From: Shewanella psychromarinicola
Lineage (GTDB): Bacteria > Pseudomonadota > Gammaproteobacteria > Enterobacterales > Shewanellaceae
Reading direction: 5' to 3'
NCBI RefSeq assembly: GCF_003855155.1
Contig: NZ_CP034073.1
Coordinates: 372,001-436,000 of the forward strand
Length of the DNA: 64,000 nt
Shown: positions 4,913 through 34,331 of the stretch, piece after piece
Layout of the letters: each line of letters opens with the position of its first letter
Position numbering within the stretch: the stretch's first letter is position 1
Program-made: the position numbers and the translations under genes
Notes under the pieces: model-generated
Told to the model about the DNA's origin: nothing
The model's database searches: none
What the model saw: only the letters and a program-made list of their open reading frames with translations

Positions 4913-5485
4913 TTGCGCTTATCATCCACACTCTCTTGGTTCTTTTGGGTGTCGCTTCTGTGCGGCATTTTTTCATCCACACTTATCGCGGCAGAACATT
5001 CCAGCAGTTTCGGTCAAGCCAAAAAAATGGCTAAAAAGATTTACCAACAACACTTACCACTCAGCACCTTCTATTGCGGCTGCGATATCGCCATCGCAGG
5101 AAAATTATGGCAAGCGGATCATGCTAGCTGTGGTTATAAAGTTAGAAAACAAATCATTAGAGCCAACCGTATCGAATGGGAGCATGTGGTTCCCGCATGG
5201 GAATTTGGTCATCAACTGCAATGCTGGCAAGACGGTGGTCGAAAAAACTGCAATAAAAATAATGCTGCATTTAAAAAAATGGCAGCCGATTTACACAATC
5301 TTGTTCCTGCTGTAGGTGAGGTGAATGGCGATCGCAGCAATTTCCGTTTTAGTGATTGGGGCGGAAAAGCGGATCAATACGGGCAGTGTAAAATGATTAT
5401 CGACTTTAAAGGCCGCAAAGCACAACCCCCCAAACAAGCAAGAGGGCCTATCGCTCGAACTTACCTTTATACCCGTGATCATTAA
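4913..5485 (+). pseudogene. endA: Endonuclease I, 5' part (gene split by IS630)
   Basis: The N-terminal three quarters of periplasmic endonuclease I: signal peptide ([11 protein letters not shown]..., ending near LIAA), then the nuclease core with the active-site motif [10 protein letters not shown] and the [14 protein letters not shown] segment. A TTG start at 4913 preceded by AGGG is preferred to another in-frame TTG at 4892. The frame is interrupted after RTYLYTRDH at 5482 by a transposon; the stop codon at 5483-5485 belongs partly to the insertion. The missing C-terminal piece lies at 6574-6753. Joining the two with a single TA restores a continuous endonuclease I reading frame. The truncated product lacks the C-terminal lobe and is probably inactive. 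Confidence 0.85.
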
Positions 5486-6570
5486 AAATGCTTGATTTTG
5501 TCCCAAATGGGATCATCATAGCCCCATGAAACAAATTACACTCTCGCCAGAACAAAAAGTAGCATTGGAAACTCGACATAAAAGCTCGAGTGATAGGCGT
5601 GAGTGTGATCGCATTAAAGCCATTTTACTACGCGATGAAAATTGGCCAACGCCAATGATTGCCCAAGCGTTACGTATTCACGAAACGACCGTAGTTCGAT
5701 ACATTGATGCCTATGCTCACGACCAAAAACTCACGTGTAATAGTGGCGGCTCCTTAAGTTATCTGAGTCAAGAGCAAACTGAACTATTGATTGCACACCT
5801 GTGTGAGGTGACCTACTTGCATAGCCATCAAATAGTCGCTTATATCTCAGAACAATTTCAGATTAAGTACACAGTGTCAGGCCTCAATAAATGGCTGCAT
5901 AAACATCAGTTCAGCTATAAAAACCCTAAAGGGGTTCCTCACAAATTTGATGAAGACAAACAAACGGCTTTCATTGAATATTATGAGCAACTAAAATCCT
6001 CGTTAACCCCTGATGAACCGTTATTATTTATGGATGCGGTTCATCCGACCCAAGCCACAAAAATCACCGCTGGCTGGATAAAAAAAGGCGTTGATAAACC
6101 GATAGAAACGACGGGAAGCCGAACCCGTATTAACGTGGTTGGTGCAATCCGACTTGGTCACTTAACAGAAGCGGTCATTGAGCAATATAGCAAAACGGTT
6201 AACGGTGCATCCATCATCGATTTTTTAAACCAAATTAGAGCGCGTTACTCAACAAGTGGTGTTATCCATTTGGTGCTTGATGGCGCTGGATACCATCGAA
6301 ATGCCTTAGTGGTTAAAGAGGCTAAAAATCTGAATATAACATTGCATTACCTGCCACCTTATAGTCCAAATTTAAACCCAATAGAACGATTGTGGAAGGT
6401 GATGAATAAACATGCGAGGAATGGGCAATACTTCGCAACGACAAAAGAATTCCGACGAAAAATCAATGACTTTTTTAGCATCACCCTCCCCGATATTGCC
6501 GATACACTCGGTGATACAATTAATGATAACTTTCAGAAATTAAAAACTGCAGTTTGAATTCACTTGAGTA
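5485..6570 (+). mobile_element. IS630-family insertion sequence in endA
   Basis: About 1.09 kb bounded by TA dinucleotides at 5483-5484 and 6571-6572, as expected for IS630/Tc1-type insertion at TA. The boundaries were chosen because removing the element plus one TA re-creates an in-frame endA. Terminal inverted repeats are weak (roughly half of 22 positions match), so the exact ends may be off by a few bases. Confidence 0.7.
5526..6557 (+). CDS. IS630-family transposase
   Basis: 343 residues. The N-terminal half carries two helix-turn-helix modules (MIAQALRIHETTVVRYI; then a winged helix ending in YKNPKGVPHK). The C-terminal half is a DDE integrase-like domain with Asp in LLFMDAVHPTQ, Asp in HLVLDGAGYH and Glu in NLNPIERLWK. 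The frame is complete with no stops, so the enzyme may still be active. It is transcribed in the same direction as the host gene endA, which it splits. Confidence 0.92.
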   Translation: MKQITLSPEQKVALETRHKSSSDRRECDRIKAILLRDENWPTPMIAQALRIHETTVVRYIDAYAHDQKLTCNSGGSLSYLSQEQTELLIAHLCEVTYLHSHQIVAYISEQFQIKYTVSGLNKWLHKHQFSYKNPKGVPHKFDEDKQTAFIEYYEQLKSSLTPDEPLLFMDAVHPTQATKITAGWIKKGVDKPIETTGSRTRINVVGAIRLGHLTEAVIEQYSKTVNGASIIDFLNQIRARYSTSGVIHLVLDGAGYHRNALVVKEAKNLNITLHYLPPYSPNLNPIERLWKVMNKHARNGQYFATTKEFRRKINDFFSITLPDIADTLGDTINDNFQKLKTAV

Positions 6571-6573
6571 TAT

Positions 6574-6753
6574 ATGCAACAAACCTATGGTCTGCAAATC
6601 AGTAATAGCCAACAAAAGTTGTTTAACGCATGGAACAAAATGCAACCAATCAGCGCCACGGAATGCCAACGTGATACCTTAATCGCTGCTAACCAAGGTA
6701 ATCATAATGATTTTGTATTCAAACAATGCCAAAATAACGGCTTAGTTCGTTAA
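6574..6753 (+). pseudogene. endA: Endonuclease I, 3' part (gene split by IS630)
   Basis: A 59-codon open frame, QQTYGLQISNSQQKLFNAWN onward, matching the C-terminal end of endonuclease I (the LFNAWNK-x-x-P segment, then ECQRD and QGNHNDFV). It is in frame with the 5' part at 4913-5482 once the insertion and one TA are removed. It has no ribosome binding site of its own and is unlikely to be translated usefully. Confidence 0.85.
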
Positions 6754-6803
6754 TTGACGATCAAGCTCCCCCTTGAACAATTGGTTAAATAAGGTCAACA
6801 CTG

Positions 6804-7544
6804 ATGAGAGTCCCACGCATTTTTCAGCCCCTAGACAATTTACAACAAGGGCAAACGCTTCAATTAGATGAGGATGGTGTCGCCCATATCGGCCGAGTAT
6901 TGCGAATGGGCATAGGGGACCACATCAGCTTGTTTAACGGTGATGGTAATGATTACTTAGCTGAAATTATTGAAATAAGTAAAAAATCCATCACTGTCAA
7001 CGTCTTAAGTTGTCAAGCTAACAACAACGAATCAACATTAGACTTGCACTTAGGTCAGGTAATTTCTCGTGGTGACCGAATGGAATTTACGATCCAAAAA
7101 TCGGTTGAGCTAGGCGTAACAAGGATTACACCCTTATTTTCAGATCGTTGTGGTGTCAAACTTAATGGTGATCGCTTAGAGAAAAAACAACAACAATGGC
7201 AAAAAATTGTCGTCAGTGCTTGTGAACAATCTGGCCGCAGTATCGTACCGGTTGTTCGCCCTGCAATGACATTGGCGCAATGGTGTGAAGAATCTACCGA
7301 AGCCTTAAAACTGAATTTACACCCAAGAGCTTCACACGGCATTAATGGCTTACAGTTAACCGATCAACACCACAAAGTAAGATTATTAATTGGCCCAGAA
7401 GGCGGCTTATCTGACGAAGAAATTGCCATGACCGAAACTGAGCATTTTACCGATATTTTATTGGGGCCAAGAGTGCTGCGTACAGAAACCGCATCATTGA
7501 CTGCTATTACTGCATTACAAGTTAAATTTGGCGATATTGGTTAA
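6804..7544 (+). CDS. rsmE: 16S rRNA (uracil1498-N3)-methyltransferase
   Basis: 246 residues, the normal length for RsmE, a SPOUT-class enzyme that methylates U1498 of 16S rRNA. The N-terminal PUA-like domain starts MRVPRIFQ. The SPOUT knot motifs near the C-terminus are clear: [13 protein letters not shown] and [11 protein letters not shown], which build the AdoMet site and dimer interface. It lies between the broken endA and gshB, the usual order in Shewanella and relatives. The gap to gshB is 41 bases and no terminator is seen, so the two are probably cotranscribed. Confidence 0.95.
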
Positions 7545-7585
7545 CCCAAACCGATATCATCTTGGATATTATTAAGGATAAACAC

Positions 7586-8539
7586 ATGATTAAGCTCGGC
7601 ATTGTTATGGACCCTATTAGCGACATTAACATCAAAAAAGATACCAGCTTCGCGATGTTATTAGCCGCACAGGCACGTGGCTACCAATTGTTTTATATGG
7701 AAATGCATGATCTTGCGATGGTCAACGGCAAAGCCATGGCCAACATGCGTGAATTATCGGTAAAGCAAGATGCTAACCAATGGTTTACATTAGGCGAGTC
7801 AATTGATACCCCGTTGGCAGATCTTGATGTGATCTTAATGCGCAAAGATCCACCATTTGATACCGAATTCATCTACGCCACTTATATGCTGGAACGGGCG
7901 GAAGAAGAAGGCGTATTAATCGTTAACAAGCCTCAAAGCTTACGTGATGCCAATGAAAAACTGTTTACAGCATGGTTTTCTGAGTTTACGCCAGACACTC
8001 TTGTGACCCGTGATGCTAAACGTATTCGAGCGTTCCACCAATTGAAGCAAGATATTATTTTAAAACCATTAGATGGCATGGGCGGCACGTCTATTTTTAG
8101 AGTGAAAAAAGATGACCCTAACGTCGGGGTCATTATCGAAACGCTCACCAGTTATGGCCAGCAGTTCGCAATGGCTCAAGCCTTTATCCCTGAGATAACT
8201 CAAGGTGACAAGCGTATTTTAGTGGTTGACGGTGAACCGGTTCCATACGCATTAGCGCGTATCCCGATGAAAGGTGAAACCCGTGGCAACCTAGCGGCTG
8301 GCGGCAGTGGAGTAGCCCAGCCATTATCAGAAAGTGATTGGAAAATAGCCCGCGCCATTGGTCCAGAATTGAAAAAACGAGGCCTTATTTTTGTTGGTTT
8401 AGACATCATTGGTGATAAGTTAACTGAAATCAATGTCACCAGCCCAACCTGCATTAGAGAAATTGAAGCCGCATATGACGTTGACATTACCGGCATGCTT
8501 ATGGATGCCATCGAAGCCCGTATCAATCAGCAGAAATAG
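7586..8539 (+). CDS. gshB: Glutathione synthetase
   Basis: 317 residues from the ATG at 7586, which follows a TAAGGATA ribosome site; an upstream TTG at 7562 is rejected for lack of one. GshB joins gamma-glutamylcysteine and glycine using ATP. ATP-grasp features are present: the KPLDGMGG phosphate loop, the MAQAFIPE segment, GDKRILVVDG, and the metal-binding Glu and Asn in the EINVTSPT motif. The N-terminus (KLGIVMDPISDINIKKDT) matches E. coli GshB. It follows rsmE in what looks like a short operon; the alkaline phosphatase gene starts only 8 bases downstream. Confidence 0.97.
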   Translation: MIKLGIVMDPISDINIKKDTSFAMLLAAQARGYQLFYMEMHDLAMVNGKAMANMRELSVKQDANQWFTLGESIDTPLADLDVILMRKDPPFDTEFIYATYMLERAEEEGVLIVNKPQSLRDANEKLFTAWFSEFTPDTLVTRDAKRIRAFHQLKQDIILKPLDGMGGTSIFRVKKDDPNVGVIIETLTSYGQQFAMAQAFIPEITQGDKRILVVDGEPVPYALARIPMKGETRGNLAAGGSGVAQPLSESDWKIARAIGPELKKRGLIFVGLDIIGDKLTEINVTSPTCIREIEAAYDVDITGMLMDAIEARINQQK

Positions 8540-25185: not shown

Positions 25186-26445
25186 TTATACTTTCTCAGC
25201 TGCAATTTTTGCAGTCTCAAGCTGATGCGCTTGTTCAGTTTGATCGACAATGGTTAATACCGCAGTATCACCAACCACGTTACATGAGGTTAATACCATA
25301 TCGATAATACGGTCTAGTGCAGCCACAATGACAAATGCCTCTACTGGTAAGCCTAATTGGTAAATCAGTACCCCAATCATCACCATACCACCACCAGGCA
25401 CACCACCTGCACCCACTGACAATAAAAACACACTAAACAGTAACGACGGGATTTGATCATTGCTGATTGGCATACCAAAGGCGTTAGCCACAAAGAATAT
25501 CGCAATAGTAATGTAAATCGACACCCCGCCCATGTTCATGGTTGCACCCAGTGGCACACCAAAACCAGCCACCGCTTGACTCACACCTAGCTTGTCAGTA
25601 AGGGTACGCATGGTTACCGGAATAGTGGCGTTTGAGCTAGCGGTAGACAATGAGAATAGTATTTGTTCTTGGGTTTTTTCTCTGAACGTTTTCGCTGAAA
25701 TAGGGGTGAATAGGCTGACAGCAAATGGATATACGATAAAAATCCAAATCAATAATAGGGCTAAAATAAGCACTAAATATTCAACAACACTGACAAAAAT
25801 TTCAGGTTCTAAGGTTGCACCTAATTTAAACATCAAGGCAAATACCCCGTATGGCGCTAAACTCATTACCACCGAAATTAAGCGCATCATGATTTTATTG
25901 GCAGTTTGAAACCCTTTTACCGCCCCCTCAACGGAATGCCCCAATGATTTGATCACGCCGCCTATTAATAGCGCCATAAAAATCACTTGCAGCATATTGC
26001 CAGAGGTGAAGGCTGAAAAAGGATTATTTGGCACTATACTGACAATTAACGACATTAAATCTGGCAGTTCTGTCGCGGTAATATCCAGCGAACCGCTGCT
26101 CGACATATCCACCCCTTTACCGGGTTCAAATACCATCGCGACGGTAAATGCAGCTAAAATGGCTATCATGGTATTGATAATATAAAAGCCAAAGGTTTTA
26201 CCACCTAAACGGCCAAAGCTTTTTAAATCTTGTAACTCACACACACCGCAGACAATACTCACAAACACCAGTGGGACCACTAGCATCATGATCATATTGA
26301 CAAACATAGTGCCGACACCACTTGCCAGACTCACTAATGTGCCACCAAAAAAAGCATTATCGGCTAATAAAAACTGCACAATACTGCCAAGCACAACCCC
26401 TAGAAATAGACCGATAAAGATCCGTGCTGAAAGTGATTTTGTCAT
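25186..26445 (-). CDS. Dicarboxylate/amino acid:cation symporter (DAACS family)
   Basis: 419 residues from the ATG at 26445, placed after AAGGGAAAAAA; a longer in-frame start at 26499 has no ribosome site. About eight membrane segments and two re-entrant loops, as in GltP/GltPh. Family motifs: the serine-rich hairpin (FSLSTASSNATIPVT), the GATMNMGG transport signature, and the C-terminal ALDRIIDMVLTSCNVVGD region with the Asp and Asn that bind substrate and sodium. Substrate is probably a C4-dicarboxylate, glutamate/aspartate or a neutral amino acid; the specificity is not readable here. It is transcribed alone. Confidence 0.9.
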   Translation of the reverse strand: MTKSLSARIFIGLFLGVVLGSIVQFLLADNAFFGGTLVSLASGVGTMFVNMIMMLVVPLVFVSIVCGVCELQDLKSFGRLGGKTFGFYIINTMIAILAAFTVAMVFEPGKGVDMSSSGSLDITATELPDLMSLIVSIVPNNPFSAFTSGNMLQVIFMALLIGGVIKSLGHSVEGAVKGFQTANKIMMRLISVVMSLAPYGVFALMFKLGATLEPEIFVSVVEYLVLILALLLIWIFIVYPFAVSLFTPISAKTFREKTQEQILFSLSTASSNATIPVTMRTLTDKLGVSQAVAGFGVPLGATMNMGGVSIYITIAIFFVANAFGMPISNDQIPSLLFSVFLLSVGAGGVPGGGMVMIGVLIYQLGLPVEAFVIVAALDRIIDMVLTSCNVVGDTAVLTIVDQTEQAHQLETAKIAAEKV

Positions 26446-26762
26446 TTTTTTTCCCTTCGAAATGCAACATCGGTTGCTATTTATTATTATTGCACCCAAT
26501 CCTAGGTGTGTTTTATTATTCGAGCGCAGTGATATTGAGACATTGACACCGATAATTCAATCATCATTAGAACAAAGCTGACCACTTATACTCTGTATTA
26601 ATTGAACACACCCACAAAGAGCATAATAAACAGAATGTTGACTATGATAAAACCTTGAATGATGAGTGTTGAACTGTGGTAAAAACCCACTTAACACAAG
26701 TTCAATGGTGCTTAATTAGTGGTGAGTACTTAATGGCTGATGGTCAACAATGATCATAGCGG

Positions 26763-27782
26763 CTAAAAGTGCAGTAACGACAATACGAGCTTTTTTGCTT
26801 GCATGTGCTGTTGCTTAATACTGACGTGATAACGCACAACCCAAGCTACTAGCTGGTCCCAATCCGCTGATAAACCTATGGCGTTGGCAGTATCATCATA
26901 GGTCAATGAGCCAAGCGAATGTTGATGTGATAAAGGCGGTTGATGAGTATGTGTCATCGGCGCCACATTGTTGTTAGCGGCCAATATCTTGGTCAGATAA
27001 GCTAACTGACGATGCTGCTTATGAAAGTCTGCCGTTGAATTAATTTGCGGCAACGCCAATAGTGTCGCCGGTGCACGGAGGGCTAATTGAGGCACAATGA
27101 GACGTTGGCAATGATCTAGGGTGTTGGCGATCATTAACCCAGCGGGATCCAAGTCGGTAAAGGCAATCACCTGTATTTTTGTCGGGTTAATTAAGTGTAA
27201 AAAGCGCTTTCGCCCTGCGGGAGAATAGTGATGGCTACCACGATATAACACCATACTATTGTCGATGATTGTCTGTAAATCTGGCGCAAATGAATAGCCA
27301 AACAGGTTATCAAAGCTGTCGAGGTTTTCGACCACAATTAGATTAGCGATATTCAGTCGCTGGCAAAGTGCTAGTGCACTATCGACTTTTAATCGCAGTG
27401 AACAATTATGCATCATCATTAAGTCGACCGCTGGATCAGCCACTAGGGCTTGAGCAATCCTAGAGGAAAGTTTGATTAATACGTAATCGGCTTCTGGGCT
27501 GATATTTGCGTATTTTTCATTGGCACTGTGGTGTGACATCTGCTGGCGGGCCATATCAAAATCAAGCGAGAGAATATCTAAACCCGAATCAATTTGAGCC
27601 ATTTCACGCAGTAAAATATAATCGCTAGAGGTTAAATATAGGTGTTTTTCAGCGCCATCTGGCTCACCTATTTGCCACAGATGATATAACGTCTTCCAAC
27701 TAGCATTGAAAGGCACACGCGGCAAACGTTGCTTTGCAGCGCGGGCCATTATGTGTAACTGACTTTTAGTTATGCTAGCCAA
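26763..27782 (-). CDS. Toprim-domain nuclease subunit of MksBEFG/Wadjet-like system (JetD/MksG-like)
   Basis: 339 residues, last gene of the condensin operon. The Toprim fold is recognisable: Glu152 in LIVVENLDSF, then Asp210-x-Asp212 in IAFTDLDPAG, the acidic residues that hold metal in topoisomerase/primase-type nucleases. The N-terminal ~120 residues are probably a DNA-binding or dimerisation part. In known Wadjet systems this subunit cleaves plasmid DNA after loop extrusion by the SMC complex. The start is uncertain: TTG at 27782 (overlapping the previous gene by 13 bases) or ATG at 27749; neither has a strong ribosome site, so translation is likely coupled. Assignment rests on the Toprim residues plus operon context. 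Confidence 0.8.
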   Translation of the reverse strand: MASITKSQLHIMARAAKQRLPRVPFNASWKTLYHLWQIGEPDGAEKHLYLTSSDYILLREMAQIDSGLDILSLDFDMARQQMSHHSANEKYANISPEADYVLIKLSSRIAQALVADPAVDLMMMHNCSLRLKVDSALALCQRLNIANLIVVENLDSFDNLFGYSFAPDLQTIIDNSMVLYRGSHHYSPAGRKRFLHLINPTKIQVIAFTDLDPAGLMIANTLDHCQRLIVPQLALRAPATLLALPQINSTADFHKQHRQLAYLTKILAANNNVAPMTHTHQPPLSHQHSLGSLTYDDTANAIGLSADWDQLVAWVVRYHVSIKQQHMQAKKLVLSLLHF

Positions 27783-28990
27783 AGTTCAACATCATGAATA
27801 ATGAAGTTACCGTTATACACAGGATCGGGATTACCTATGGGTTCGAGCTCAAAATAATTTTTATGCTCTTCAGCTAAACCGTCATAACCACCAATAACTT
27901 GATACAGCCAGCTTTCGGCGTCCCATTCGAGTTGTTTTTCAGTCAAATAACTTAAGGCTGATTGACGTAATCCTGAATCAATCACTTCACAGAAATATTC
28001 ATCTACGGCTATTTTAAGTGGGTTTTCTGGGATATCAAAATCCTCACTGTCGCCCATCTCAAAGGTAACATTGTGTTCACGCAGCTCGGCGGGCAAGGCG
28101 TCACGGCGAATGGCTTTAACTTGTGCCACCAAACTCATCATTTCAAGTTCATGATGTGGATTAGCAACATCAACACTAGCAGGGGCTATGAGCGCTTCAG
28201 CACAATTAAATAAAACCGGAACAGCTTTATGAACCACATGGTTTTCGGGTTGGTAATCAGGATGCATGCTGGTGTGTAGTAACCAGCCTTTTAGTAATAG
28301 TGTGCGCCCTTGTATTTGCCTAAATCGCCCAAGTAACTCATACAATCTCGCTTGGACAATACTCAACTCTTGGGTGCATTGGCTTAAGGTTTCTTGCAAA
28401 CTGATCATCAGTAAGCGGCGCAGTTCGCGAATATCACCAGCGATTTCGCCTAACTCGCTAAATTGAAACATCTCTAAGCCGTTTAGCAACTCTGAAACTT
28501 GGCTTTGGGCTAATTCGTTTTCACGGATTTTCGCAGTAATGGTGCCAACATAACCAAATTCGTTGTTAATTCGACTCCACAAGACCCGGATCGAATAACG
28601 TAGACTGTCGGTAAAGCTGTACACATGTTCATTTAAATCAGCTAAATAGGCTTCCGCAGCACTGAAATCCACATCACGGCGGGCTTCTTTATAATGATCG
28701 GCTAAGGTTTTTATTGTCGCCAGTGCTGAGCCAACGTTGGCATCAATCTGCCGATTACGTTCATCGCTTAAGGCTTCTTCTAATAATGCCCGCACCGAAC
28801 GCTTTAAGCGCAGTTCTTGATCGGGTTCTGGGCGCCATAAAATGCCATTTTTTTTCAGTTTATCGATAACATTTGCATCATGAGCGGTGTCATTAATCGA
28901 TCCCGCTAAATATGCGTCCATGATGACATCGGCATGCCGCCCGAGTTGTTTGAGCAGCTTTACCCCAGCTTGGTGTAAGTTGCTGCTCAT
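27770..28990 (-). CDS. MukF/MksF-like kleisin (JetA-like)
   Basis: 406 residues, third gene of the operon; its ATG overlaps the previous stop codon (ATGA). The N-terminal ~100 residues look like a winged-helix region, the middle is helical and charged (EAYLADLNEHVYSFTDSLRY; QSQVSELLNGLEMFQFSELG), and the C-terminus is acidic and ends with a small domain (PVYNGNFIIHDVELWLA). This is the layout of MukF/MksF kleisins, which bridge the SMC ATPase heads and bind the MukE-like subunit. It is shorter than MukF. The family is often mis-annotated because sequence identity is low. Identity is inferred from operon position and pattern rather than a signature motif. Confidence 0.75.
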   Translation of the reverse strand: MSSNLHQAGVKLLKQLGRHADVIMDAYLAGSINDTAHDANVIDKLKKNGILWRPEPDQELRLKRSVRALLEEALSDERNRQIDANVGSALATIKTLADHYKEARRDVDFSAAEAYLADLNEHVYSFTDSLRYSIRVLWSRINNEFGYVGTITAKIRENELAQSQVSELLNGLEMFQFSELGEIAGDIRELRRLLMISLQETLSQCTQELSIVQARLYELLGRFRQIQGRTLLLKGWLLHTSMHPDYQPENHVVHKAVPVLFNCAEALIAPASVDVANPHHELEMMSLVAQVKAIRRDALPAELREHNVTFEMGDSEDFDIPENPLKIAVDEYFCEVIDSGLRQSALSYLTEKQLEWDAESWLYQVIGGYDGLAEEHKNYFELEPIGNPDPVYNGNFIIHDVELWLA

Positions 28991-29640
28991 ATTAACTCCC
29001 TTTGGGTCGAGGTTTCGGCCTGAGATTCAAGACTTAAGCCTTCTGTTTCATCAATAAAGCGGATCACTTCGTATAAATAATCTAACTTGCCAGTGGCAAT
29101 ATAAATCTGCTTTTCACTATTGGGTTTGGTTAAATAACCTAGCTCCACTAACCGTTTAAACACCAATTTAATTTGACCATCAACGTTAGTGCTTATTGAG
29201 CCAAATAAACGATAATGGCTCAATTTAGTTAACTGCTCTCTAAAGGCTGGCGTATCCTCGATACGCGCTTGTAAATCGGTTAAGCGAATAGGCGCGCCTT
29301 CGCTCAGCGGTGCATCTTGGCCACTGGCTTCTTGCACTAATACTAGCCATTCCACTAAGGGAATAAGTCCTGAGCAAATGTCTTTAAATTGCGATGAAAT
29401 AACTTTGCGCTCAGCCTCTCCTAACTGCAAATAGCCGCAAAAAAATACCTCACCTTCGCCAGCACTGCCAATGGTACGATTAATTTGGTTAAGGTAGGTT
29501 TCCACTCGGTCACGAGTACTATTGTTTTTAAGCGCACGCCAGCCATCTTCATTGGTTACTCGGCAAATAAATTCACCTCGTAATAATTGTTCTATTAACG
29601 CACCCGTCCCTACTAAGGTAGTTTCAGTCGATTCAGACAT
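28987..29640 (-). CDS. MukE/MksE-like winged-helix subunit (JetB-like)
   Basis: 217 residues, second gene of the operon. Its ATG overlaps the stop codon of the SMC gene (TAATG) and its own stop overlaps the next start (ATGA), so the subunits are translationally coupled. The predicted fold is all helix plus winged helices (GALIEQLLRGEFICRVTNEDGWRAL; FKRLVELGYLTKPNSEKQIYIATGKLDYL), the pattern of MukE/MksE proteins that clamp the kleisin. No catalytic residues. Assignment depends on size, winged-helix look and position between SMC-like and kleisin-like genes. Confidence 0.78.
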   Translation of the reverse strand: MSESTETTLVGTGALIEQLLRGEFICRVTNEDGWRALKNNSTRDRVETYLNQINRTIGSAGEGEVFFCGYLQLGEAERKVISSQFKDICSGLIPLVEWLVLVQEASGQDAPLSEGAPIRLTDLQARIEDTPAFREQLTKLSHYRLFGSISTNVDGQIKLVFKRLVELGYLTKPNSEKQIYIATGKLDYLYEVIRFIDETEGLSLESQAETSTQRELI

Positions 29641-32600
29641 TAGATGTGCTCCTTGGCAGTGTCGGCACTATTGGTGTCAGTACTGTTCATTTCAATGCGA
29701 GTTCTGTCAGCATTCGCGCTACGCTGCGACAAACGCGCAGCTAATGGGTTGGCTTTGGGTTTAACTACTTGCAGTTTTTTAGTTTGTTTATTAATGATGT
29801 AACGGTTGGCAAACAGGTTTAGCACTTCGGACTCTGGGTTAGGGAACGCACCCAATACACTGATGTTATTGTTTTCACAGGCATCGAAGATTTTTTTCAC
29901 GTTGGTGTGATGCAAAGTCCCTAACTCATCGATTGGCCAATGAATGGTCACATTGGCTTTGCCACGCAATAAACGAGTAAACGCCAATAAGAATTTACAT
30001 AAAATCAAGTATGCCATACCGTGGCTAGACGACTCGTTTAATTGGCGATCGGTGCGAATAATTAAGTCGCTGTTACCTTCTTTTAAACGCAATTCAATTT
30101 CTAACAGTTTAGCAATGCCGCCGGTTAACGCTGCGCGGCCAATAATCTCTAACGCACGGCGCATTGAGTTAGTGTAGTGCTCGTCCGGTAGTTGGCTAAA
30201 ACCATCTGCTTTCCACGCTTTAAAGGCTTTAACAAACACTTCAAGTTCAGGCCAAAACTCAAGTTCACTAATACGTGAGCGAATGCGTACCGCCGATTCA
30301 GAGATCCCATCAAGGAACAATTCTTCACCCACTTCACGGGTAATACGCGCACTTTGGCTGGCAATACGGCGATCGATATCCGTTAATACATCATAAAAAG
30401 CAGCAAGACTAATACCGAAGTTACGCCCTTGATCGCGGATAGTCCTTAATGACTGTGGCACCATTACATTCAATAATTGTCCGAGTTGGGGTACCAACTT
30501 ACGGTAGTCGAGCAGGCGAATACCTTTGTCGTTGACAAAACTAGACTCATCACGGGCACGTTCCCAAAACTCCGCTAAACTTGAGCCTGATTTACTGGCA
30601 ATGACCGAGTCAAAGTGATCAACATACTGTTTCACAGAGCCCATTAAGTAATCACGTTTTAGCAATAAATCCTCGCCTTGGCGTAAACGTTCACCAATAC
30701 TGCCAGTAGCGTCATCATTATTGGCGGGTAATTTGAGCTCAGCTAACTTGCGCATTACCGCACGCAGCTTGGTGAGATTTTCAGACGCCTCAACTTGGGC
30801 GGCATCACAGGCTTTACGTTCGGTTTCTAAGCTGTCACGACGGTGTTTGATTTCAGTCGTTTTCGCTTTTAGCAGTTGCTCCAATTCCAGCGTTGCTCGC
30901 TTAACATCGGCTAATTGAGTTTGCACTTTAGGCTTTCGAACTAGCCAGGTATGTTGATACCAATCATCAAAACGCAGTACATCACTGCGACGCTGTTCGG
31001 CGTGACTAATATTGGCTTCAAGATCGCGAATTTGTTTTTTCAACGCCAAAATGGTGCCTTCATCAACACCACGAGACTTAAGCTCATTTTTATACCAGGT
31101 TTCACCGGCTTTTTGTTCGGTTTTAGCATTCGCACGGCGTTGTTCAATATTGGCTTTAATTTGCCCTAATTGATTATCAATGGCGCCGACAACCTCTTGC
31201 CAATAAGCATTTTTTTCCATTCGCGCTTCAAGCGCCTGCTCTTTTTGCTCACTTAACCAACCAAGATGTTGATTGCTAAGTAGCTTGAGTTCGTTATCAA
31301 GTTGCACTAATCTTTTGTTCGAATCGATTTTACGATCTGCAACAGCTTGATTGATTTTTTGTTGTTCGTTGCGTTTTTCATCAAACAGGCGGCGTAAGTC
31401 TTCACGGCTATTTTTGTAGGCCGTGCGGGCAAAGGTGAGCTCGCGAGTGATGCTATCAAGTGCCGCATTCATGGCAACCAGTTGATCTTCCGCTTCGGCA
31501 TGCATTTCTTTTGCACTTTGCAGTGCTTCTTCAGCCTTGGCTAGGCGAATACGTAAGTCTTGCTCTGTGGCAGCGTACTCTGGCACATCAATGGCTTTAA
31601 GATCGAGATTGACCCCAAATAGCGCTTCACTGCTGTCTTTGGTTAAACTTGGGTGTAGGTCACTACGATGTAACAGCTCTGGCGCGATAACTTTACCAAA
31701 GGTGTGCTCCCAACCGTGGGCTTCTTTGCGCAAAAACTCCAACAAGGTATGCGACTGCGGGAACAACATATGGTGCAGTTCTTCTTTGGCATTTTCTCTA
31801 TCACTGACGCGAATACTGGAGATGCGCAGTGCTTCGTTGGCTTGGTCGCGTTTGGCCCGTTGTTTACGTTCTTCTGTGGTTAAGCGGTCGACTTTTTGGT
31901 TACAGGTTTCTTGTTCTTCATCGGCTAAACTAATGCGCTCATCGAAAATTGCTAAGCGCATTTTTTCATCTTCAGTGTAGGTAACCCCAGCCACTTGATG
32001 TTTCAACTCTGCTGCCGTTAATTTGAGTTGATATTCTTGTTCGCTAAACTTAGCTTTACCCGCATCGGTTTGCTCACGCCATTGCAGTTCTAACTTAGCA
32101 AGATAGTCATTAGCAAGCTCGCGCTGCTTATCTCGCGCTTCACGTTGAGTGTCTTGTTCAAGATGTAACACTTCAAGTTCACGATGCAATTGTTCAGCTA
32201 TTTTGCTACGACGCGCATTAAAGGCGGCTTCAATATCTTGGTGTTTTTCGGTTTGTAATTTATGACGCTCATTAAGGTTTTCAACATCACTGCGCCAATT
32301 AGGCAGATTATCTAAATCAGCTTTGGCTTGTTCAATGTCAGCATCTAAAAAAGCGCCATGCTGGTCTTCAATAGTATTGAGTTCATCTTCAAACTTGCCA
32401 GCGTCGCCTTTTGCTGCCGATAACTCTTGGTTTAACTCATCACGAACCTCTTTCCACTCTTCATCTAATAAACGTAACTTGAGGTTTAATTCTTTGCCAT
32501 GAGATTGGTTGCCTTCTTGACGCTCAGCTTCAAGGGTTTCATCACTTCGATAGCCGCGGGATAAACTGGCTAAGCGTAATTCGGTACTTAATAGCTGATC

Positions 32601-33374
32601 AAATTCTTGTTCGAGCTTGTCGTATTCTGGACGGATTTGTTCAAACCCTTGCACCAGTTGGCTTTCACGGATCCAGATTTCAACATGCTGAGGATTAAGA
32701 TGTGACGTGGGTGGATTAACGCCATCTTCTTCTAAAATGGCGGCGATCATTGATTTAACCGTTTCCATTTTACCCTCTTTCGAGTGCACGGCTTTGGCTA
32801 ATTTTTCAATATGACGCAAGCTATGATCGCCGTCACACAGCGAAAATTGACGTGCGTAAGTCCGCAGCTCATTGCGGTTACTGCCGGTATTTAACAAGCT
32901 ACGATCGTTTTGAATGATCGCGCGGAACTCTCGGGTATTTAATAGGTTAGTATGAGCAATGCCATCACGTTTTACTTCGCGACCTAACTCAGCCATTGAG
33001 TGACAAATAACAGTATCGCCATTACGTGACTTAATGTAATGCTCTAGTTCAAATCCTCGCGCAATAAAGCGGTAATTGACCCCTTTACCATCGCCAGCAG
33101 AAGCTAAAACAGCTTGATAAAGTAAACCGTCATCTTTTTGATATTCATAGATAATGTAGCTTGAGTCATGGGGTAAATACCAACGTTCAAAACTGTCACG
33201 CGTTGACGGCACCACACGGCTTGGATACTCGCCATAAAATACCGGCACCAAGCGTTGTAAGGTTGTTTTACCTGAGGCATTGGTACCACATATATTGGTG
33301 TGACCCTTTAATAACAGTTCGACAATACCCGGTAGGTGGGTATTAATTAACACGATTCTAATCAAGCTTGGCAT
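29640..33374 (-). CDS. MukB/MksB-like SMC ATPase (JetC-like)
   Basis: 1244 residues, first gene of the operon. The N-terminal head has Walker A GTNASGKTT (30-38). The C-terminal head has an ABC signature-like loop NESSSHGMAYLI (1113-1124) and Walker B ending HWPIDELG (Asp1149-Glu1150). Between them lie two long charged coiled coils (roughly 240-550 and 620-930) around a short hinge-like stretch near 560-610 (HGWEHTFGKVIAPELLH). The short hinge and overall plan fit MukB/MksB/JetC rather than Rad50 (no CxxC zinc hook) or classical SMC. It is expected to extrude DNA loops with the kleisin and MukE-like partners. Transcribed first, which differs from the usual F-E-B-G order. Confidence 0.85.
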   Translation of the reverse strand: MPSLIRIVLINTHLPGIVELLLKGHTNICGTNASGKTTLQRLVPVFYGEYPSRVVPSTRDSFERWYLPHDSSYIIYEYQKDDGLLYQAVLASAGDGKGVNYRFIARGFELEHYIKSRNGDTVICHSMAELGREVKRDGIAHTNLLNTREFRAIIQNDRSLLNTGSNRNELRTYARQFSLCDGDHSLRHIEKLAKAVHSKEGKMETVKSMIAAILEEDGVNPPTSHLNPQHVEIWIRESQLVQGFEQIRPEYDKLEQEFDQLLSTELRLASLSRGYRSDETLEAERQEGNQSHGKELNLKLRLLDEEWKEVRDELNQELSAAKGDAGKFEDELNTIEDQHGAFLDADIEQAKADLDNLPNWRSDVENLNERHKLQTEKHQDIEAAFNARRSKIAEQLHRELEVLHLEQDTQREARDKQRELANDYLAKLELQWREQTDAGKAKFSEQEYQLKLTAAELKHQVAGVTYTEDEKMRLAIFDERISLADEEQETCNQKVDRLTTEERKQRAKRDQANEALRISSIRVSDRENAKEELHHMLFPQSHTLLEFLRKEAHGWEHTFGKVIAPELLHRSDLHPSLTKDSSEALFGVNLDLKAIDVPEYAATEQDLRIRLAKAEEALQSAKEMHAEAEDQLVAMNAALDSITRELTFARTAYKNSREDLRRLFDEKRNEQQKINQAVADRKIDSNKRLVQLDNELKLLSNQHLGWLSEQKEQALEARMEKNAYWQEVVGAIDNQLGQIKANIEQRRANAKTEQKAGETWYKNELKSRGVDEGTILALKKQIRDLEANISHAEQRRSDVLRFDDWYQHTWLVRKPKVQTQLADVKRATLELEQLLKAKTTEIKHRRDSLETERKACDAAQVEASENLTKLRAVMRKLAELKLPANNDDATGSIGERLRQGEDLLLKRDYLMGSVKQYVDHFDSVIASKSGSSLAEFWERARDESSFVNDKGIRLLDYRKLVPQLGQLLNVMVPQSLRTIRDQGRNFGISLAAFYDVLTDIDRRIASQSARITREVGEELFLDGISESAVRIRSRISELEFWPELEVFVKAFKAWKADGFSQLPDEHYTNSMRRALEIIGRAALTGGIAKLLEIELRLKEGNSDLIIRTDRQLNESSSHGMAYLILCKFLLAFTRLLRGKANVTIHWPIDELGTLHHTNVKKIFDACENNNISVLGAFPNPESEVLNLFANRYIINKQTKKLQVVKPKANPLAARLSQRSANADRTRIEMNSTDTNSADTAKEHI

Positions 33375-33719
33375 GATAATCCTTTTCCAAACAGCTCACA
33401 TTGCAGTGACGAAGAAGCAAAATAGGGCTGAAAAAAATAACGTCTATTTATTCAATTTACGTAAAGTAAAACAAACGCAGGCTGGAGGCAATTTTCAACG
33501 ACAGAAATTGGCTTTATAATACGCTAAATAATTCAAAAATGACGGCTAACAATTCAGCAAATAGCCAGAAACTGTCGATGGATAATAACTGTATTCTCTA
33601 GGGTAACAGCAACAGCGCTGAGCAGAAGACTTTTGGGGCAAGGAATAAACACAAATACGCACAGATTTCTCCCCGGGTATTATCTATGCTACTGCGCTAG
33701 AAACCAGATATTTGATGTT

Positions 33720-33790
33720 CGATATTTGAAGTTTGAAGTTTGAAGTTTGATATTAGCCGTTAGATATTAGCCGTTAGATATTAGCGCTTA
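33720..33790. repeat. Short tandem repeats in long non-coding gap
   Basis: GAAGTTT is repeated three to four times, then a 14-base unit with core GATATTAGCCGTTA about three times. The surrounding 957-base gap (33375-34331), between the condensin operon and ahpF, holds no convincing intact gene. On the minus strand near 34165-34085 a 29-codon stretch (GLAFKTADATKAIRDVIQKP) followed after its stop by more protein-like sequence may be a decayed gene I cannot identify. Confidence 0.5.
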
Positions 33791-34253
33791 TACAAGATTA
33801 TTTATAAGCTTGTAAATTGTGAGCTTGCATGGCTCTGCTCATTAGCAACCATCAAGTCCTTGCCGCCCTATACTTCGGCCAAAAATACCAAGTTATTGGT
33901 AACATGTGCAGCAACCAAAAACGCTACTTTGTGGCAGAAGTTATATTGAGTATTAGTAATAATAGTAGTAATAGTACTACTACTGTCAATCTTAGGCTGG
34001 ATAAAGCATAGCACTGCGCCGGGATCTTGAGCATAGCGCTCATTTTCTGATGATGTATTAATGGCCGCATATATGGTGCTAACCGATAATTAAGCCGCGA
34101 CTTTTGGCTTTTGTATTACGTCACGAATGGCCTTGGTCGCGTCTGCGGTTTTAAAGGCTAATCCAGGTACTTGATCACAACGACGGCAAAATCTTATCGA
34201 TGTTCACCGGCTCGAACGATTTCAATCACGGCGTTTGAGGCCTATAAACATGA

Positions 34254-34285
34254 AAAAAATAGCCCGTAAATGTGGGCTATTTTTT
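34254..34285. terminator. Terminator downstream of ahpF
   Basis: AAAAAATAGCCC pairs with GGGCTATTTTTT around GTAAATGT. Symmetric A/T flanks would let it work in both directions; ahpF ends about 50 bases away. Confidence 0.85.
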
Positions 34286-34331
34286 ATTGGCTGAGATAAC
34301 AAAGACCTCATATTACTCAATCAACAAAACC

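Follow-up and report, generated by a model that had tools for sequence, protein, structure and literature searches.

A MukBEF-like condensin operon present throughout Shewanella, with a Toprim nuclease-like subunit in some genomes

A 64,000-nucleotide stretch of the single-contig, 5.13-Mb genome of Shewanella psychromarinicola (contig NZ_CP034073.1, positions 372,001 to 436,000; the window) carries on its minus strand, at window positions 26763 to 33374, four overlapping open reading frames for a structural maintenance of chromosomes (SMC) ATPase (B), a putative KITE subunit (E), a kleisin (F), and a Toprim nuclease-like protein (G), in the order B-E-F-G. Its kind is known, a MukBEF-like SMC complex joined to a Toprim nuclease, and the DUF3584/DUF7281 family to which it belongs is a distinct variant, set apart by its gene order, its position outside the PADLOC Wadjet models, its core status in the genus, and the repeated absence of the nuclease. 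We consider it probable that the operon encodes a second, housekeeping-like condensin, inferred to act on the chromosome, with a plasmid-cutting module that is either still present or has been lost. No earlier report of a DUF3584/DUF7281 condensin in Shewanella was found in the open-licence literature.

The B, E, and F genes are core in the genus and usually occupy one chromosomal site, and the Toprim gene is patchy. Among the 118 relatives searched first, a DUF3584 SMC was present in 71 of 71 genomes of the same genus versus 14 of 47 from the same order, and a direct search of the genus found it in 129 of 129 genomes. ScpA was likewise present in all 71 genus genomes. DUF7281, the family of G, was found in 62 of the 129 genomes and in 31 of the first 71 (one of these copies, in genome G063, lies off the operon). 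Sixty of the 62 genes follow a same-strand DUF3584 SMC match at a distance of 2.3 to 2.7 kb; those in G063 and G416, the latter a 34-bit match, lie elsewhere. G stands beside the main SMC of the genome in 59 of the 129, a count that includes G417, whose G is broken into two parts, perhaps by a sequencing error, and G435, where the SMC is divided over two contigs. Sixty-seven of the 70 remaining genomes have no DUF7281 at all, and G063, G397, and G416 have one elsewhere. The copy in G397, the 60th to adjoin an SMC, lies with a second, divergent DUF3584 SMC (contig C26, 93968 to 100370), while the main SMC of that genome (contig C31, 20514 to 24077) has no G, an arrangement that appears to give one genome two distinct machines, one with and one without the nuclease.

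SMC loci from 84 genomes were compared together with the window, 85 loci in all. G follows F in 29 of the 70 other genus loci, or 30 of 71 with the window, and in 30 of the 63 named Shewanella loci among the best 80 of 196 loci in named records; S. oneidensis MR-1 (G061) has all four genes. Downstream of the operon in the window, and outside the machine, lies a symporter-type gene on the same strand (25186 to 26499), which we take to be DctA. In 62 of the 70 other genus loci a same-strand homologue follows F within 3 kb, marking a conserved chromosomal site, and the stop codon of F and the symporter gene are separated by a median of 1253 bp where G is present and 527 bp where it is absent. Given this common site, a mobile or island location for the copy in the window was rejected.

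Judged by pairwise ratios of nonsynonymous to synonymous substitution (dN/dS), the motor is not relaxed where G is absent, and its constraint is at least that of ScpA and ScpB. Nei-Gojobori estimates were made for 13 pairs with G and 17 without, with a dS filter of 0.02 to 2 that left 12 to 15 usable pairs per operon gene and, in the same pairs, 12 to 17 for ScpA and ScpB. The medians, which are descriptive only, were 0.026 for B, 0.022 for E, and 0.025 for F with G, and 0.028, 0.019, and 0.026, respectively, without it; ScpA gave 0.030 and 0.033, and ScpB gave 0.050 and 0.049. G itself has a median of 0.126, about five times that of B, E, and F, and by this measure is under purifying selection. 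That B, E, and F are kept equally well without the nuclease suggests that a defense machine also does, or became, chromosome care. A motor retained in the absence of its nuclease has to serve some purpose that requires no cutting, the simplest of which would be chromosome upkeep beside Smc-ScpAB. We make no claim that interface residues are freed in the absence of G: 20-residue windows at F 41-75 and B 726-745 reached z values of about 3, but this signal was dropped in view of the large number of windows scanned and of strong values with opposite sign at the C-terminal end of B.

Comparison with Smc-ScpAB indicates that BEF is mostly vertically inherited in Shewanella. The BEF and ScpAB distances correlate with an r of 0.89, which none of 999 permutations equaled (n = 69, leaving out three replaced operons), and the BEF and Smc-ScpAB trees, with 65 and 66 splits, have 36 in common. 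At the three loci left out (L096, L097, and L099, from G004, G021, and G027), a distant four-gene operon lies upstream of the same symporter-type gene. The B protein of L099 is 22% identical to that of the window, and L096 and L097 group with L099, which suggests that the resident operon was replaced in place. SMC scores similarly low to those of the replaced operons were seen in G395, G429, G433, and G439.

Distant B-E-F-G operons were also found on eight large plasmids (L286 to L293; 107 to 910 kb), four of which are typed as conjugative. G is present on all eight, the D-x-D-x-x-G pattern not being found in L288. The SMC gene is broken by an IS256-like element on the Enterobacter hormaechei plasmid, and the SMC and kleisin are split on a Vibrio campbellii plasmid. 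The full gene set on every plasmid, the catalytic residues kept in all 40 aligned G proteins, and the action on plasmids of the closest characterized relatives, Wadjet and Corynebacterium glutamicum MksBEFG, speak for a pure anti-plasmid system, in which BEF, whatever the species, would target foreign circular DNA alone and, where G is absent, would hinder plasmids by binding, compacting, partition failure, or a borrowed host nuclease. We regard this as unlikely. Presence in all 129 Shewanella genomes searched, a housekeeping-like dN/dS that is unchanged without G, and agreement with the ScpAB tree are unlike the sporadic Wadjet, and the 67 genomes mentioned above have no DUF7281 to do the cutting, other nucleases not having been searched for.

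The preliminary description, made from the DNA alone, had noted four genes with overlapping start and stop codons at all three junctions; the four open reading frames were confirmed at the positions given, on the minus strand, with overlaps of 1 nt for B and E, 4 nt for E and F, and 13 nt for F and G. B (29640 to 33374; 1,244 amino acids) is an MksB/JetC-like SMC ATPase that matches DUF3584 (PF12128) at 1649 bits over profile positions 1 to 1191. The Walker A, signature, and Walker B motifs noticed beforehand proved to be conserved. In the Walker A sequence GTNASGKTT (residues 30 to 38 of the translation; 33261 to 33287), G30, T31, N32, G35, K36, and T37 are invariant among 18 aligned SMCs, as are S1116, S1117, and G1119 in the signature region and the Walker B Asp-Glu pair D1149 and E1150 (29925 to 29930). 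By these motifs and PF12128, B is an SMC ATPase of the kleisin-KITE class, and its long coiled coils are presumed from its family. A sequence search with B against the Protein Data Bank (PDB) gave no match; a profile search gave 82 matches, of which the top 60 consist largely of coiled-coil-like, short P-loop, or Rad50 fragments and include neither JetC nor MukB.

E (28987 to 29640; 217 amino acids) is a candidate MksE/MukE-like KITE subunit. It matches PF21980 (MksE) at 9e-6 and 26.6 bits, slightly below the cutoff of 27, which its relative in L109 clears at 34.0 bits, and searches with E against the PDB returned nothing credible. F (27770 to 28990; 406 amino acids) likewise found nothing credible in Pfam or, as a profile, in the PDB; only its structure model showed the likeness to MukF. 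The AlphaFold2 model (mean pLDDT of 73.9, pTM of 0.41) combines a helical N-terminal part, which includes a short strand, with a long helical middle, a disordered linker, and a C-terminal helix-hairpin part. Its top Foldseek matches are chains of the MukBEF complex (4.0e-4 and 6.8e-4), followed by a chain of the JetABCD complex (7.7e-3) and MukF(1-287) (1.0e-2). On this model F is a kleisin of MukF/JetA architecture, as had been proposed. Relatives of F carry the name phosphoenolpyruvate carboxylase in many NCBI records (e.g., relatives P0088 to P0200), a name to which the model lends no support.

G (26763 to 27782; 339 amino acids; TTG start) belongs to DUF7281 (PF23947, 7e-27), and the suspicion that this Toprim protein lies outside the DUF3322/DUF2220 kind was borne out. 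The G of the window is 98% identical to a protein from a metagenome-assembled genome named S. psychromarinicola. The Toprim glutamate E152 (27327 to 27329) and the metal-binding motif D210-x-D212 (27147 to 27155), both picked out beforehand, are retained in all 40 of the G proteins that were aligned, that of the window included. In structure comparison the model of G matches MksG, topoisomerase VI-A, and JetD, all about level, which agrees with the Toprim fold expected of it. On its predicted structure, G has the fold of JetD and MksG and keeps the acidic residues of the Toprim domain, as the fourth subunit of a Wadjet/MksBEFG system in the broad sense would. The profile search with G ranked the PDB differently, with SPO11 (0.0013), a DUF964 protein (0.0028, N-terminal part), and topoisomerase VI-A (0.024) as best hits and MksG at 1.1, and with the core status of the SMC this could mean that the complex is a chromosomal condensin in which G is no defense nuclease and serves as a topoisomerase VI/Spo11-like topology or break-making helper on the cell's own DNA. 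Such a role seems quite improbable, given the level structural matches and a G that is patchy and fast-evolving. Moreover, 20 aligned G proteins have no invariant or near-invariant tyrosine before Y180, leaving strand passage by a catalytic CAP tyrosine in the N-terminal domain unsupported. Two stray proteins of this type were seen. L115 (G063) has an orphan DUF7281 protein (6748 to 7653) beside a Na+/H+ exchanger gene, and the resident operon of that genome is without G; L112 (G081) has a solitary 338-amino-acid JetD_C/DUF7281-like protein (5153 to 6169) adjoining a pentapeptide-repeat protein, in a stretch with no DUF3584 SMC and in a genome that has MukB. Upstream of the operon in the window lie about 0.95 kb of intergenic DNA (33375 to 34331), in which short direct repeats are visible by eye near 33730 to 33800.

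Under parsimony, G must have changed at least 9 times on an 83-row BEF tree, 11 times on a 100-row tree that adds named outgroups and leaves one row unscored, and 10 times on a 73-row ScpAB tree, counts that do not tell gain from loss. Repeated loss appears the better-supported direction, because distant outgroups mostly carry G, the trees agree between clades, L034 holds a remnant of G, and G is divided in G417. Outside the order, a class sample of 274 gave four full-length DUF3584 SMC matches and one fragment above the cutoff, and all four full-length loci read B-E-F-G; the eight plasmid operons likewise all carry G. Named loci from Pseudomonadaceae and Chromatiaceae, among the same best 80, have G in 13 of 15; P. 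sagittaria is without it, and the other contig ends too early. Within the order but outside the genus, 6 of 13 classifiable relatives have G (L094, L095, L098, L104, L106, and L109). The G tree recovers the same main clades, and G data for 28 sequences (26 from the genus and 2 from the outgroup) are compatible with the between-clade order of BEF (approximately unbiased [AU] test, P = 0.50). A control with one clade moved gave an AU P value of 0.001, yet a Shimodaira-Hasegawa (SH) P value of 0.10. With 48 sequences, G and BEF have 24 of 45 splits in common, versus 0 to 1 for five shuffles. The remnant in L034 consists of the last 41 codons of G, with 95% identity to the G of L032. Some 55 bases following F align with the beginning of the G gene of L031, the match to the nearest relative, L033, stops inside F, and about 170 unmatched bases stand in place of about 675, a net loss of about 0.5 kb; L033 and L031 both have G. 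Among 48 G-less loci searched over the 2.5 kb after F, this was the one clear remnant, the others giving no match or matches at chance level.

The operon had been described as a Wadjet/MksBEFG-like system, and this holds insofar as it is a MukBEF-type condensin with a Toprim protein of the JetD/MksG class. It does not extend to Wadjet types I to III, membership of which was rejected: the PADLOC 2.0 models found no JetA and no JetB in the operon, JetC at 2e-4 over 42 residues, and JetD at 0.015, and an Azomonas relative gave JetC3 at 5e-5, JetB1 at 0.003, JetD1 at 3e-5, and no JetA. No NCBIfam model came near its cutoff on the operon proteins, and no JetD_C was found in the genome of the window. 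The Shewanella operon also differs from Wadjet in being core, the distribution of Wadjet being described as sporadic in a 2023 review (PMC10586767), and in its gene order. That order was correctly given, but it is no rearranged Wadjet operon; B-E-F, followed by G in the loci that have it, is normal for the DUF3584 and DUF7281 family, as seen in the window and in those DUF3584 loci that were complete among the ones examined. C. glutamicum MksBEFG, whose order is given as mksFEBG (PMC10123090), differs from it in that F-E-B-G arrangement, and Shewanella has BEF without G in about half of its genomes. L113 (G070) and L114 (G024) contain an additional F-E-B-G system with a 1,529-amino-acid MukB-like SMC and a 316-amino-acid JetD_C protein, the families having been searched in L113 only.

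Pseudomonas aeruginosa MksBEF, which organizes the chromosome according to one account (PMC7485682) and probably derives from loss of JetD according to the same 2023 review (PMC10586767), resembles by description the G-less Shewanella operon as a nuclease-free MukBEF-like condensin beside Smc-ScpAB; Shewanella differs in having forms with and without G at one site. MukBEF is similar in its kleisin, by the model of F, and in an SMC with long coiled coils, and differs in that the genome of the window has no match to PF04310 (MukB) and B has no MukB sequence match in the PDB, nor a profile match among the best 60 of 82. As that genome has ScpA and no MukB, MukBEF in place of this operon was rejected. 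Topoisomerase VI-A and Spo11 have the Toprim fold of G, which differs from them in having no conserved N-terminal tyrosine and in being encoded with an SMC complex. Either of the functions first suggested, a plasmid-defense condensin or a chromosomal condensin with a nuclease, may apply.

By analogy with the MukBEF, Wadjet, and MksG families, BEF would extrude loops on the chromosome, with a benefit independent of G. When the motor reels in the whole of a small circle, G, if present, would cut it, and one machine could combine chromosome upkeep with plasmid restriction. In the review's treatment of it, the total-extrusion model of Wadjet implies motor activity on the chromosome as well (PMC10586767); extending that model, we suggest that the chromosome would be spared as too large for full extrusion. 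Lineages that discard G would keep the chromosome job alone, as that review proposes for P. aeruginosa MksBEF (PMC10586767). A bolder statement, to which we give about an even chance, is that Shewanella presents a natural series in which a plasmid-defense SMC machine is turning into a housekeeping condensin or also serves as one, with about half of the species folding the chromosome and killing small circles with one complex and the rest having a pure condensin after repeated, independent loss of the nuclease.

Several observations weigh against a chromosomal condensin that has repeatedly lost its nuclease. For C. glutamicum MksBEFG, a chromosome role was not detectable in the experiments described in PMC7083940. 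Genomes with G are not visibly short of extra replicons: among genomes of at most three contigs in the 71-genome sample, more than one contig was found in 5 of 15 with G and 2 of 14 without an operon G. In passing, small extra contigs were seen in two near-complete genomes that carry G (G036:C1, 13,375 bp; G019:C2, 22,708 bp); should they be circular plasmids, restriction would be incomplete. The dN/dS pairs share taxa, and several dS values for G exceed 1. Seven of the 13 order-level relatives are without G (L100 to L103, L107, L108, and L110; the contig of a 14th ends early), as are the named Neiella and Parashewanella loci among the best 80. The full BEF topology is rejected by the G data (AU P = 1e-5 with 28 sequences; with 48, rejected by the AU and Kishino-Hasegawa tests and not by SH), so G has been exchanged within clades, and its regain by recombination is possible. 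An ancestral G-less condensin that gained G several times by recombination with four-gene operons, to which the discordant within-clade topologies, the operons apparently replaced in place, and the G-less order-level relatives might point, is nonetheless very doubtful in light of the agreement of G and BEF between clades, the G of most named and distant outgroups, and the remnant in L034.

The reading that we prefer, a second condensin with a separable plasmid-cutting module, draws its interest from one orthologous operon at one site that occurs with and without the nuclease across a genus under equal motor constraint. The 2023 review describes the evolutionary relation of Wadjet to other SMC complexes as unresolved and chromosome loop extrusion by a JetABCD system as undocumented (PMC10586767). 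The loss-of-nuclease model thereby becomes testable between close relatives and in S. oneidensis MR-1. The analysis would give a function to the uncharacterized Pfam families DUF3584 and DUF7281 and would correct the annotation of the kleisin as phosphoenolpyruvate carboxylase. If the natural series is real, the proposed origin of MksBEF would be visible at the scale of a genus, and a Wadjet-type motor would have a chromosome role with its nuclease still attached.

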